Counted from the first letter of the stretch, positions 22,591-26,834 are shown. The stretch: 64,000 nucleotides of DNA from a bacterium (GCA_029933125.1 JAOZOU010000004.1:124001-188000); one strand, 5' to 3'. Notes: generated by a model not told the origin, from the letters alone. Numbers and translations are program-made.

Positions 22591-23406
22591 ATGAGGTATC
22601 TAATAGCAGTTTTCCTGACGCTAGCCGTTGCTTCCAGCGTTTTCGGTGCAACAACTAAGGCTTATCAATTGAGAGATGACTTTGGCACCGAGCCACTCTA
22701 CGACTGTGCACTCTCGTACTACTATTACATCCCGTGCCCTACCTATTCATGGTTCTGGGCATATTCGGGATTTGCTCCTGGTGACATCGTTGGCGTTATT
22801 TTCAATGTCGGCGACCAGGGTACTGGTGGCTATGCTCCGTGTGATCCACTGCAGTGTCAGACACTCGAGACAGTTCGAGTACTTGATTTTGCAGGCTATG
22901 GAACGGTTTATCCGGGGCTGTTCACAGTCGAGATGGACGTATGGTGCCCGCCGTGCCCGCTGGTCAATCTTTACAACAGCGGACCGATTGAGACACACTT
23001 TGCGTGGAACTACATCAATATCGTTCCACCGCTTTGTCTTACTCCCTGCTTTGATGGGCAGGGTCTTACCTTCGTCGTTACAATGAAGCATACAGGGACG
23101 AATGGTGCATATCCTGCTTGGGGCTTTGACAACATCAGCACAGCGATTGCAACAGGCTGTGAACTCCACGACTATGGCTGCCTGCCCGTCAGCTACCCTA
23201 GAATGTATGTGCATTCGGGTTACTTCGGGAATGGTGATCCTTGCCAGTACTATCCGCCACTGGCATTCTGTGATGGTGCAGACACCACTCAGGATTGCAG
23301 CCAGTATGGCTTCATCGAGCTGGCATGGAGAGCTTATCTAATTTGCTCCGGTCCTTCAGGAACTGAGCCAAGCACCTGGGGCAACATCAAGCGGATTTAC
23401 CGCTAA
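22591..23406 (+). CDS. Secreted Cys/aromatic-rich protein, tandem family copy 1
   Basis: A 271-residue protein of no family I recognise. It has a signal peptide (MRYLIAVFLTLAVASSVFGA), then the family hallmark YYYYIPCPTYSWFWAYSGF, a LDFAGYGTVYPG turn, WGFDNIS, GCELHDYGCLPV, ELAWRAYLICSGP and the C-terminal TEPSTWGNIKRIYR. The mature part carries 14 cysteines, many also found in copy 2, so disulfide bonding outside the cytoplasm is likely. ATG 22591 is chosen because GGAGGGAG (22578-22585) precedes it and the signal peptide begins there. About 80% identical by eye to copy 2. Function unknown; a surface-layer or adhesive role is only a guess. Confidence 0.8.
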   Translation: MRYLIAVFLTLAVASSVFGATTKAYQLRDDFGTEPLYDCALSYYYYIPCPTYSWFWAYSGFAPGDIVGVIFNVGDQGTGGYAPCDPLQCQTLETVRVLDFAGYGTVYPGLFTVEMDVWCPPCPLVNLYNSGPIETHFAWNYINIVPPLCLTPCFDGQGLTFVVTMKHTGTNGAYPAWGFDNISTAIATGCELHDYGCLPVSYPRMYVHSGYFGNGDPCQYYPPLAFCDGADTTQDCSQYGFIELAWRAYLICSGPSGTEPSTWGNIKRIYR

Positions 23407-23413
23407 AAAGGGT

Positions 23414-23434
23414 GGGGGTGCCGATGGCACCCCC
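23414..23434 (+). terminator. Hairpin terminator after copy 1
   Basis: GGGGGTGCC-GAT-GGCACCCCC, a perfect 9-bp stem with a 3-base loop, starts 8 bases after the stop. It is followed by a weak T-rich run (TTCTCATT). Confidence 0.7.
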
Positions 23435-23493
23435 TTCTCATTCTCGCTTCCCGACGATAAGAGTCATCCCGTCCGAGAAACCACATATTTTGC

Positions 23494-23523
23494 TTGACAG
23501 TTCAATCCGCCTTGTGATATACT
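23494..23523 (+). promoter_or_regulatory. Sigma70-type promoter of copy 2
   Basis: TTGACA (23494-23499), an 18-base spacer and TATACT (23518-23523). The predicted transcript starts near 23531, giving a leader of about 133 bases before the ATG at 23664. Confidence 0.75.
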
Positions 23524-23530
23524 TCAAAAC

Positions 23531-23663
23531 GTCGAAGGAAGTTGTGGGGGTCTGGCTTCACAGGGCATAGGCTGCCCAAATCCGAAGTTGAGCTCGAGTC
23601 TTGAGTTTGAGGTGACTTGAGCTTGTGGTTTGTGACTACTCCTCAACAGAGGGAGGTTCGGAC
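23531..23663 (+). promoter_or_regulatory. Long 5' leader of copy 2 with hairpin
   Basis: The leader opens with GTCGAAGGAAGT (23531-23542), which recurs with one change at 25841-25852 ahead of copy 4, each time 7 bases after the -10. A 10-bp stem with one G-T pair, AGCTCGAGTC (23591-23600) with GACTTGAGCT (23614-23623), lies in its middle. GGGAGG at 23651-23656 is the ribosome binding site. Confidence 0.45.
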
Positions 23664-24476
23664 ATGAAGTACTTAGCTCTAGCGTTGGTTCTGGTGCTTG
23701 CCACATCTGCGTTCGGTCTTGAGAAGAAGGCCTACCAGATGCGAGACGACTTCGGCACCGAGCCACTCTTCGACTGTGCACTCTCGTACTACTATTACAT
23801 CCCGTGTCCTACCTATTCCTGGTTCTGGGCATATTCGGGATTTGAACCTGGTGACATCGTTGGCGTGATCTTCAATGTCGGCGACCAGAGTACTGGTATC
23901 TATCCTCCGTGCGATCCGTTCAACTGCCAGGCGCTCGAGACTGTTCAAGTGCTTGATTTTGCAGGATATGGAACGGTTTACCCGGGTTTGTTCACAGTCG
24001 AGATGGATGTATGGTGCCCGCCGTGCCCGCTGGTCAATCTTTACAACAGCGGACCGATTGAGACCCATTTTGCGTGGAACTATATCGATATCGTTCCACC
24101 TGTCAGCATCTGCCCGTGCTTCGACGGGGAGAATCTGACATTTGTTGTCACAATGACCCATGTAGGAACCAACGCTGCATATCCTGCCTGGGGCTTTGAC
24201 AACATCAGCACGGCGATTGCAACAGGCTGTGAACTCCACGACTACGGCTGTCTGCCAGTGATTTATCCGAGGATGACCGTCCACAGCGGTTACTTCGGGA
24301 ATGGCGATCCTTGCCAGTACTATCCGCCACTGCCACTCTGTGATGGTGCAGACACCACCTTAGATTGCAGCCAGTATGGCTTCATTGAGCTGGCATGGAG
24401 AGCTTATCTAATTTGCTCTGGTCCGACAGCTACCGAGCCCAGCACCTGGGGTAACATCAAGTCGATGTACAGGTAG
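23664..24476 (+). CDS. Secreted Cys/aromatic-rich protein, tandem family copy 2
   Basis: A 270-residue paralogue of copy 1 with the same layout: signal peptide (MKYLALALVLVLATSAFG), MRDDFGTEPLFDCALS, the YYYYIPCPTYSWFWAYSGF core, NSGPIETHFAWNY, GCELHDYGCLPV, ELAWRAYLICSGP and the end TEPSTWGNIKSMYR. It has 14 cysteines. ATG 23664 follows GGGAGG by 7 bases and begins the signal peptide. It has its own promoter and terminator, so it is monocistronic. No known domain is recognised; the long near-identical DNA shared with copy 1 points to recent duplication. Confidence 0.85.
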   Translation: MKYLALALVLVLATSAFGLEKKAYQMRDDFGTEPLFDCALSYYYYIPCPTYSWFWAYSGFEPGDIVGVIFNVGDQSTGIYPPCDPFNCQALETVQVLDFAGYGTVYPGLFTVEMDVWCPPCPLVNLYNSGPIETHFAWNYIDIVPPVSICPCFDGENLTFVVTMTHVGTNAAYPAWGFDNISTAIATGCELHDYGCLPVIYPRMTVHSGYFGNGDPCQYYPPLPLCDGADTTLDCSQYGFIELAWRAYLICSGPTATEPSTWGNIKSMYR

Positions 24477-24492
24477 TCTGGAGGAAGTTAGG

Positions 24493-24519
24493 GGGGTGCC
24501 CTGTGGCACCCCTTTTTTT
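24493..24519 (+). terminator. Rho-independent terminator after copy 2
   Basis: GGGGTGCC-CTGT-GGCACCCC, a perfect 8-bp stem, is followed directly by seven T residues (24513-24519). Confidence 0.9.
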
Positions 24520-24588
24520 ATGCCCTCTCCCGATATCTGCAACCTTTTCCAGCCCAGCTCCCAACAGGTAACGACACCCGGGTAAGAG

Positions 24589-24617
24589 TTGACGTTCGCC
24601 TGATTTCGAGGTAGAAT
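24589..24617 (+). promoter_or_regulatory. Sigma70-type promoter of copy 3
   Basis: TTGACG (24589-24594), a 17-base spacer and TAGAAT (24612-24617), giving a leader of about 108 bases. The leader contains GGGGTCCAAG near its start, similar to GGGTCCAG in the copy 4 leader. Confidence 0.6.
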
Positions 24618-24732
24618 GGAACTCAGAAGGGGTCCAAGTCGCAGCACAAACAACCGCTGGGAGGCGACAAAGACGAGTTCCAAGTCTCTCTGCCTTCGAA
24701 ATCGCCCCGGGGTACCTGAAGGAGGGATCAAG

Positions 24733-25590
24733 ATGCGCTACGCACTGGTTGCAATCATGCTTGTTGTAGCCACCTTAGCTTCGGCTTTTGAGGGCAAGGC
24801 ATTTGTCATGCGAGAAGGCTTTGACCCAGAACCGCTCTACGATTGTGCACTCCAGTACTACTACTACATTCCTTGCCCGACGTATTCCTGGTTCTGGTGT
24901 CTGTTTGGTTGGGAACGCGGTGACGTTCTTGGCGCCTGGTTCACCGTTGGTGACAATAGCACAGGCGGTTATGAGGCCTGCGACCCTGGCGCATGTATGG
25001 CCCTGGAATCATTCGTTGTACTTGACTTTGCTGGCTATGGGACTCTCTATCCCTGGGACTACACTGTCAAGTTTGAAGTCTGGTGTGCTGATGAATATGG
25101 CTGCCCGGTAGGACCGGTGCTCTGGTCAAGCGGTCCCTATGAGACTCATCTTGGCTGGAATCATGTCTATGTCGATCCACCACTGAGTGTCTGTGATTGT
25201 GTCGTCAACCCAGAACCACCCTCAGCGCCGCGATTTCTGATAACAGCCAAGCATATCGGGATATATGCCGACTATCCCGCATGGGGATTCGACAACATCA
25301 GTTATTCCCTTCAACAAGGCTGTGAACTTCATGACATCAGCTCGTTGCCGGTGCTCTATCCGCGTCCTTACAACAGCTATTGCTCCACCATTCATTCGGG
25401 CTTCTACGCACGTGAAGACTTCATGTATTGCCCCGGCAGTCCGATCTGGTTCAAGGATCTCTACGATACAACAGCCGCGGGTACCCATTACGGCTATATG
25501 GAGCTTGCCTGGCGGGCATATCTGCTTTGCGGAGGTCCCAGTCGTACCGAAGCCACAACATGGAGCAAGGTCAAGGCGCTGTATAGATAG
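24733..25590 (+). CDS. Secreted Cys/aromatic-rich protein, tandem family copy 3 (divergent)
   Basis: A 285-residue member with signal peptide MRYALVAIMLVVATLASA, MREGFDPEPLYDCALQ, YYYYIPCPTYSWFW and a C-terminal TEATTWSKVKALYR. It shares with copy 4, but not with copies 1-2, a PPSAPRFLITAKHIG insert and a YPRPYNSY stretch, so the array has two subfamilies. Thirteen cysteines. ATG 24733 has GGAGGG six bases upstream. It is the most divergent copy: the tail is TTWSKVK rather than STWGNIK. Function unknown. Confidence 0.82.
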   Translation: MRYALVAIMLVVATLASAFEGKAFVMREGFDPEPLYDCALQYYYYIPCPTYSWFWCLFGWERGDVLGAWFTVGDNSTGGYEACDPGACMALESFVVLDFAGYGTLYPWDYTVKFEVWCADEYGCPVGPVLWSSGPYETHLGWNHVYVDPPLSVCDCVVNPEPPSAPRFLITAKHIGIYADYPAWGFDNISYSLQQGCELHDISSLPVLYPRPYNSYCSTIHSGFYAREDFMYCPGSPIWFKDLYDTTAAGTHYGYMELAWRAYLLCGGPSRTEATTWSKVKALYR

Positions 25591-25615
25591 CAAGCATCAC
25601 AGGAGCCTCCTGATC

Positions 25616-25643
25616 GAGATCCCCGTACACGCCTGGATAGTGC
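25616..25643 (+). repeat. 28-base repeat, unit 1
   Basis: Identical to 25677-25704, start-to-start distance 61 bases. The core is CCCCGTACACGCCTGGAT, an imperfect palindrome. Weaker similarity (AGCCTC followed by C/T, then TG) extends about 12 bases upstream of both units. It sits where copy 3 would be expected to have a terminator. Confidence 0.75.
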
Positions 25644-25676
25644 ATCTGCTGCAAGGTCTTTGAGAAGCCTCTTGGA

Positions 25677-25704
25677 GAGATCCCCGTACACGCCTGGATA
25701 GTGC
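25677..25704 (+). repeat. 28-base repeat, unit 2
   Basis: Exact copy of 25616-25643, separated from it by a unique 33-base stretch. A shortened relative, GAGATCACCCCGT, begins at 25713. Repeat and spacer sizes are CRISPR-like, but only two full units exist and no cas gene is present. Confidence 0.75.
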
Positions 25705-25803
25705 GAATACCTGAGATCACCCCGTCTCAATTTTGACATATCGTATTCGATGAGCTTTACAGCAAATTATGAGGCAAGTCATGCTATTATACCTAACTAA
25801 TGG

Positions 25804-25833
25804 TTGACAAAGCGCATCCGGCTGTGCTATAGT
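25804..25833 (+). promoter_or_regulatory. Sigma70-type promoter of copy 4
   Basis: TTGACA (25804-25809), an 18-base spacer and TATAGT (25828-25833), the same geometry as the copy 2 promoter. The transcript should begin near 25841 with GTCGGAGGAAGT. Confidence 0.75.
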
Positions 25834-25840
25834 ATCCACC

Positions 25841-25976
25841 GTCGGAGGAAGTGGGTCCAGCTTGAGCAGAGCGAGCAATCGCTCAAAAGGAGGTGAGCGA
25901 ACGGCGAGAGCTTAGCATGGTCTGTAGCGCACGTGTGTTCCAGCTTCCAACCTTGCTTTAGCAAAGGGAGGGCGAT
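25841..25976 (+). promoter_or_regulatory. Long 5' leader of copy 4 with hairpin
   Basis: A 136-base leader. GAGCGA-GCAA-TCGCTC forms a 6-bp stem closed by a GNRA loop and is followed closely by AAGGAGGTGA, a near-perfect Shine-Dalgarno with no start codon at a usable distance. The functional site for ATG 25977 is GGGAGGG (25966-25972). Confidence 0.45.
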
Positions 25977-26834
25977 ATGAGGTACTTAGCTCTTGTGCTC
26001 GTGCTGGTACTCGCTACATCTGTCTTTGGCTTTGAGAAGAAAGCCTATCAGATGCGCGATGACTTTGGCACGGAGCCTCTCTATGATTGGGCGCTTCAGT
26101 ACTACTATTACATCCCTTGTCCGACCTACTCCTGGTTCTGGGCATACTCGGGCTTCGCTCCGGGTGATATCGTAGGTGCCTGGTATACAATTGGTGATGC
26201 AGGCACAGGTGGCTACGATCCGTGTGACCCAGAGCAGTGCATGGTGCTCGAACAGTTCCGTGTGCTTGACTTCGCAGGCTAAGGTACTGTCTATCCAGGT
26301 TTCTTCACTGTGAACTTCGATGTCTGGTGTGCGGATCAGGATGGTTGCCCCATCGGAACACCTCTCTGGTCGAGCGGTCCTTATGAGACTCACTTCGCAT
26401 GGAACTATATTGCAGTTGATCCGCCAGTGAGTGTATGTCCATGCGTTGTGAATCCCGATCCGCCTTCGGCACCGAGGTTCCTCATCACAGCAACTCATAT
26501 TGGGACCAACGGTGCATACCCTGCTTGGGGCTTTGACAACATCTGCACACCGATTGAGTTTGGTTGCGAGCTCCATGACTATGGCTGCCTGCCAGTTCTC
26601 TATCCGAGGCCGTACAATAGCTACTTCCCAACCATGCATTCAGGCTACTACGGCAACGGTGGCTTCACCTATTGTCCTGGTGGTCCTGCATGGTTCATCG
26701 ATGGTTGTGACACAACCGCCAATGGCACCATGTACGGCTTCATCGAGATTGCATGGCGAGCCTATATAATCTGCTCCGGCCCGACGGCTAATGAGCCCAG
26801 CACCTGGGGTAACATCAAGGCGATGTACAGGTAG
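25977..26834 (+). pseudogene. Secreted Cys/aromatic-rich protein, tandem family copy 4, interrupted by TAA
   Basis: A full-length family member (286 codons) except that codon 102, Tyr in the other three copies (LDFAGYGT), is TAA at 26280-26282. The signal peptide, YYYYIPCPTYSWFWAYSGF core, PPSAPRFLITATHIG, GCELHDYGCLPV and C-terminal NEPSTWGNIKAMYR are otherwise intact in one frame, with no other lesion in 550 bases downstream. Promoter, ribosome binding site and terminator are also intact. This is either a very recent nonsense mutation, an assembly or sequencing error, or a read-through site. Codon 32-34 also shows YDWALQ where other copies have a Cys. Confidence 0.8.

Follow-up and report, generated by a model that had tools for sequence, protein, structure and literature searches.

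Why do four neighbouring proteins of a bacterium end in nearly the same ten residues as dozens of proteins to which they are otherwise unrelated? The question is raised by a stretch of 64,000 nucleotides (GCA_029933125.1 JAOZOU010000004.1:124001-188000; hereafter the window, with positions counted from its first letter), which contains four paralogous genes arranged head to tail on the plus strand. We propose, with a rough probability of 0.62, that this array encodes a family of small exported beta-sandwich proteins, amplified in one lineage and carrying a short C-terminal sorting tag, which is presumably read by the type IX secretion system (T9SS). That the common ending is a C-terminal sorting tag is very probable from its sequence; recognition by the type IX pathway is a less secure proposition, which we consider somewhat likely. 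A preliminary description of the window had reported four tandem paralogues with shared motifs and 13-14 cysteines, and had counted the TWGNIK-type tail among the signatures of the family. The paralogues, motifs and cysteines were confirmed from the open reading frames (ORFs) and their alignment: a hydrophobic N-terminus, YYYYIPCPTYSWFW, WGFDNI, GCELHD, E(L/I)AWRAY and the C-terminal tail motif are common to all copies, and copies 1 to 4 contain 14, 14, 13 and 13 cysteines, respectively. All four genes are present, although copy 4 is not a single open frame. The genes and their tags are as follows.

22591-23406, plus strand: copy 1, ORF for an exported Cys/aromatic-rich protein of 271 aa with a C-terminal TWG tag
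23374-23403, plus strand: C-terminal tag TWGNIKRIYR of copy 1
23664-24476, plus strand: copy 2, ORF of 270 aa, whose mature part was modelled (predicted local distance difference test, pLDDT, 85)
24444-24473, plus strand: C-terminal tag TWGNIKSMYR of copy 2, a short helix behind a disordered linker in the model
24733-25590, plus strand: copy 3, ORF of 285 aa
25558-25587, plus strand: C-terminal tag TWSKVKALYR of copy 3
25977-26834, plus strand: copy 4, either a pseudogene or affected by a sequencing error, 285 codons with one in-frame TAA
26802-26831, plus strand: C-terminal tag TWGNIKAMYR of copy 4

The tail was searched for as W-[GSR]-x-hydrophobic-K-x-hydrophobic-Y-R followed by a stop, with the reversed pattern as a control; its short form, TWGxIKxLYR, makes up the last ten residues. 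In the window the four array genes alone matched the pattern, and 100 shuffles gave no match. The genome to which the array belongs has the pattern at 16 places, 11 of them on genes outside the array family, and eight genomes of the phylum yielded 109 matches against none for the reversed control. When the stop requirement was dropped the count rose to 115, so that approximately 95% of the tags (109/115) are followed immediately by a stop. A tolerance of one or two mismatches added forms with Y changed to F and R changed to K and admitted eight control matches, and most of the ORFs found in this way had the tag at their end and a signal-peptide-like start. Two adjoining Cys-containing tagged proteins (L245 and L252 in G000 C100), one of which contains ..HASRSCSKNFPSISGCQD.., display this Y/F and R/K tolerance with the variant ends SIKSMFK and SIKSMFR. 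The consensus with its linker was G-P-[ST]-A-T-E-P-[ST]-[ST]-W-[GS]-x-[IV]-K-[AS]-[LM]-Y-R, where the search pattern imposed W, K, Y and R but left free the linker, which is variable and often reads G-P-S/T-A-T-E-P, as well as the T/S ahead of W and the choice of A/S and of L/M. Under the constant peptide the codons vary freely (CGG, CGC, AGG and AGA for Arg, and all three stop codons), and the constraint therefore acts on the peptide.

Proteins that end in [ST]-W-[GS]-x-[IV]-K-x-[LM]-Y-R-stop number 7-21 in each of the eight phylum genomes and 8-56 in each of ten genomes outside the phylum. A survey of 386 genomes found 18 that were tag-rich (7-56 matches), nine with 1-3 matches and 359 with none, with two control matches in total; the distribution is nearly all-or-none. 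Ten of the tag-rich genomes lie outside the phylum. The matches in G082 and G176 were set aside as chance, being ORFs of 10-11 aa, and a stricter pattern gave no match in IMG/VR. A chance origin of the tag was rejected on the reversed-pattern controls and this viral control. The tag matched no model in Pfam or NCBIfam release 20, and it was not described in the open-access literature on TWG or C-terminal signals in T9SS or candidate phyla.

The proteins that bear the tag have little else in common. Tagged ORFs were read from the DNA around most tag matches and clustered with the last 12 residues removed, and the resulting 161 proteins fell into 68 clusters by their bodies, 42 of them singletons. 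Their median length is 245 aa, they span at least eight families of genomes, and their bodies include NHL, lamin-tail (LTD), FG-GAP, rhodanese, beta-helix, plastocyanin, P-domain and CBM20 domains, or no known domain. By a crude rule of hydrophobicity and cleavage site, a signal-peptide-like N-terminus was present in 127 of 136 tagged ORFs and in 71 of 187 neighbouring ORFs (p=1e-26). Judged on these sequences, the tail is a separable C-terminal tag found on at least 68 unrelated sequence clusters. The preliminary description had recognised a real family, but had mistaken an address label common to many proteins for a feature of that family.

What might read such a label? SprA (TIGR04189) was found in 18/18 tag-rich genomes and in 6/19 genomes that were tag-free or set aside for chance hits (Fisher p=1e-5, phylogeny ignored). 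The tag-rich genomes also hold 60-123 proteins with type-A C-terminal domains (CTDs) of the T9SS, together with C25 peptidases, and PorV-family matches numbered 7-16 per genome in the 15 tag-rich genomes that were searched for them, with 16 in G000. The T9SS CTD models (TIGR04183/PF18962) matched none of 58 tagged representatives, whereas CTD-bearing homologues of tagged proteins did match. Tag and CTD are found in place of each other on homologous bodies. The tagged protein L024 (G000) and the product of the next gene have a common body (32% identical); L024 ends in ...EYLGPSATEPTTWGGIKQLYR, and the product of the next gene has a full TIGR04183 CTD that closes with ...GIYFYQLVTKHGVQTKKMVLIQ. 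The same interchange was found between L068 and its neighbouring gene, L093 (G004) and L117 (G007), between L101 and both L125 and L126, and, on a beta-helix body, between L086 and L166. No other observation indicates the function as strongly as this interchange does, namely that the tag fills the role of the CTD, and it is because the tag replaces a domain of 70-90 residues on homologous bodies that we infer the type IX pathway as its reader.

Several observations weigh against a type IX reader. The association with SprA is confounded by phylogeny, and six of the sampled genomes have SprA and no tag. No family recurs consistently among the genes adjoining tagged genes, so that no dedicated reader was found. 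The tag does not resemble the type-A or type-B CTD motifs, and it is far shorter than the shortest reported T9SS CTDs found (43-55 aa; PMC11969387). Its helical hydrophobic moment (0.57) does not clearly exceed the value for permuted positions (0.39), and 15% of permutations reach 0.57. Some of these points would suit a different and undescribed system of outer-membrane sorting or anchoring, with the co-occurrence of T9SS a phylogenetic coincidence: the tag is free of any CTD motif, there are SprA genomes without it, and tag and CTD never occurred together in the 58 representatives. Such a coincidence would, however, have to accommodate homologous bodies, those of neighbouring genes included, that repeatedly bear a type-A CTD where others bear the tag, as well as the presence of SprA in every tag-rich genome, and we regard this alternative as rather unlikely.

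Less probable still is that the tail is an in-plane membrane anchor, a helix of W/I/L/Y and K/R residues on the periplasmic face of a membrane instead of a signal read by a machine. The terminal helix of the model and the aromatic and basic residues of the tail would agree with it, but near-invariant W, K, Y/F and R/K at fixed spacing and an exactly C-terminal position are stricter than an amphipathic anchor needs, and the in-plane amphipathic anchor was rejected because of the unremarkable hydrophobic moment. The view taken in the preliminary description, of an unrecognised surface-protein family amplified under selection with the tail as part of its fold, now seems very improbable. It draws on the lack of a match in Pfam, NCBIfam and the PDB and on tandem copies in several genomes; the presence of the tail on at least 68 unrelated clusters already contradicts the part that concerns the tail, the measurable ratios of nonsynonymous to synonymous substitution (dN/dS) are low (0.05-0.15), and in the model a disordered linker appears to part body from tail. 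Selection on the array family is purifying wherever dS can be measured, as the low dN/dS shows, and the suggested surface structure under selection is not supported.

Under the type IX reading that we prefer, the N-terminal signal peptide would direct passage across the inner membrane by Sec. The body would then fold in the periplasm or outside, where its 13-14 cysteines may form disulfides. The exposed tag, which the model shows as a short helix held by a flexible linker, would be recognised by outer-membrane sorting machinery, which would address the protein to the surface or the medium. The reader may be the SprA translocon with PorV-like shuttles, or a type IX attachment arm, and the tag may be cleaved. 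In broader terms, we think it fairly likely that TWGxIKxLYR is a third, minimal class of type IX signal (~10 residues), or else that it serves an undescribed pathway which has a receptor of its own; in either case, several under-studied groups that possess a T9SS would employ it for small cargo beside the large CTDs.

The remaining features of the array are listed below.

22591-22647, plus strand: predicted signal peptide of copy 1 (MRYLIAVFLTLAVASSVFG), from sequence and the hydrophobicity test of the tagged set versus neighbours
23414-23434, plus strand: intrinsic-terminator-like hairpin 3' of copy 1 (consensus scan)
23494-23523, plus strand: sigma-70-like promoter 5' of copy 2, 11/12 (consensus scan)
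23664-23717, plus strand: predicted signal peptide of copy 2, from sequence
24490-24515, plus strand: intrinsic-terminator-like hairpin and T run 3' of copy 2 (consensus scan)
24589-24617, plus strand: sigma-70-like promoter 5' of copy 3, 10/12 (consensus scan)
24733-24786, plus strand: predicted signal peptide of copy 3, from sequence
25804-25833, plus strand: sigma-70-like promoter 5' of copy 4, 11/12 (consensus scan)
25977-26030, plus strand: predicted signal peptide of copy 4, from sequence
26280-26282, plus strand: in-frame TAA in copy 4, replacing the conserved Tyr of LDFAGYGT

The signal peptides of the four copies were judged by eye, and these N-termini support the earlier suggestion that the proteins are exported. 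Terminator-like hairpins and promoter-like sites lie between the copies, which therefore look like separate transcription units. At the protein level, identity is 85% between copies 1 and 2, 71% between 2 and 4, 64% between 3 and 4, and 54% between copy 3 and either of copies 1 and 2. The proposed division into subfamilies 1-2 and 3-4 holds in part: copies 3 and 4 have length and insertions in common, but copy 4 has a higher identity with copies 1 and 2 (69-71%) than with copy 3. An assembly artefact was rejected, given this divergence (54-85% identity), intergenic regions that show no relationship to one another, and adjacent family copies in the independently assembled genomes G001, G004 and G005. 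In G001, which belongs to the same genus, the orthologue of copy 4 is uninterrupted (86% identical, dN/dS 0.06), and the TAA therefore either arose recently or is a sequencing error. The dN/dS ratio is 0.15 for the pair of copies 1 and 2 and 0.05-0.06 among orthologues, several other pairs being saturated at synonymous sites. Downstream of copy 3, a 28-bp exact direct repeat (GAGATCCCCGTACACGCCTGGATAGTGC; 25616-25643 and 25677-25704 in the window) is part of a longer 43-bp repeat (88%). The neighbours of the array, a PPIC-type isomerase, a glycosyltransferase-TPR protein and a LysM transglycosylase, give no functional hint.

The body of the array family remains an undescribed family, as had been suggested. 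Searches of Pfam, NCBIfam and PDB sequences returned no family match. The mature part of copy 2 was modelled as an all-beta sandwich (mean pLDDT 85, predicted template modelling score 0.85), in which the body is mostly at pLDDT 85-95, linker residues 238-246 are predicted to be disordered (pLDDT <50) and the terminal helix corresponds to the tag. When the model was compared with the PDB by Foldseek, the best matches reached E 0.015-0.1, none of them passing 0.001, and TM-scores were low. The body has a weak overall likeness, as an all-beta sandwich, to the jelly rolls of CBM4, CBM6, CBM32, APC10 and PHR and to galactose-binding-like folds, but the fold match is insignificant and ligand binding is not indicated. 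A search with copy 2 found the family in G000 to G006, with the tail alone in G007, and BLAST among tagged proteins revealed distant relatives in G007 and in three f69 genomes outside the phylum. The expectation of homologues confined to one lineage and often in tandem is thus borne out mainly within one small phylum, the distant f69 homologues being the exception. At one f69 locus (L160 in G344) the relatives form four copies in tandem. G007 has a four-copy tandem array of a second, unrelated tagged family (L109:669-4085), all four ending in the tag and the other copies being 44-65% identical to the first. Tandem amplification of tagged families thus recurs.

Four genomes, from at least three genera, contain the gene for a further tagged exported protein (L069, minus strand, from ~254 down to 61; L077; L087, to 1547; and L084), with an in-frame TGA at the same position in the context GI(G/S)-TGA. 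Approximately 20 nt 3' of this TGA lies a hairpin, GUCGC-CGGGA-GCGAC, that is identical in all four genomes while adjacent codons vary. Selenocysteine tRNA (tRNA-Sec) scored above the cut-off in 7/8 phylum genomes, and folding energies overall at the site were not below those of shuffles. These features suggest that the protein is an exported selenoprotein, so far undescribed, whose gene has a selenocysteine insertion sequence (SECIS) element.

If the proposal is true, the tag accounts for the alike endings of the four array proteins and of dozens of unrelated ones, and would provide a sequence rule by which exported proteins overlooked by current annotation could be found in bacteria that are known chiefly by their genomes; the tag-rich lineages are several little-known bacterial groups. 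A signal of ~10 residues that can be exchanged with a domain of 70-90 residues would show what type IX recognition needs, or reveal a parallel pathway.

In PEP-CTERM, GlyGly-CTERM and MYXO-CTERM proteins, a motif is followed by a transmembrane helix and then by a basic tail. The TWG tag is like these systems (PEP-CTERM/EpsH, GlyGly-CTERM/rhombosortase and MYXO-CTERM; PMC1569441, PMC3237569, PMC11980579) in that it came to light by genome comparison, as a short stretch of homology at the C-terminus of many exported proteins with unrelated bodies. It differs from them in that TWG proteins stop at the motif, without a transmembrane helix. One tagged NHL body does match ScyF, a PEP-CTERM protein, through its body and not its tag.

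Further parallels lie within the T9SS. Type-A CTDs (TIGR04183/PF18962, FlgD-Ig-like) are, like the tag, C-terminal on signal-peptide proteins with extracellular-type domains, number dozens per genome, occur in the same genomes and are interchangeable with the tag on homologous bodies; they are, however, beta-sandwiches of 70-90 residues with motifs of their own, whereas the tag has ~10 residues with a linker and is modelled as a helix. The short CTDs of Prevotella intermedia, which carry motifs B, D (GxY) and E on 43-55 residues predicted to form three beta strands (PMC11969387), are likewise shortened C-terminal signals, but none of their motifs was found in the tag, where the profile of the last 24 residues consists of the GPSATEP linker and WGxIKxLYR. 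Type-B CTDs (~100 residues, five motifs) use PorP/SprF shuttles and often lie beside the shuttle gene (PMC12618676); they resemble the proposed TWG class as a second class of signal through the same translocon and differ in that shuttle-gene neighbour, none having been seen beside tagged genes. All of these type IX signals, type-A, type-B and short, are longer than the TWG tag and are beta-structured where modelled (PMC11969387, PMC12618676). The tag, which fits none of the described C-terminal sorting signals compared here, looks like an undescribed address label.

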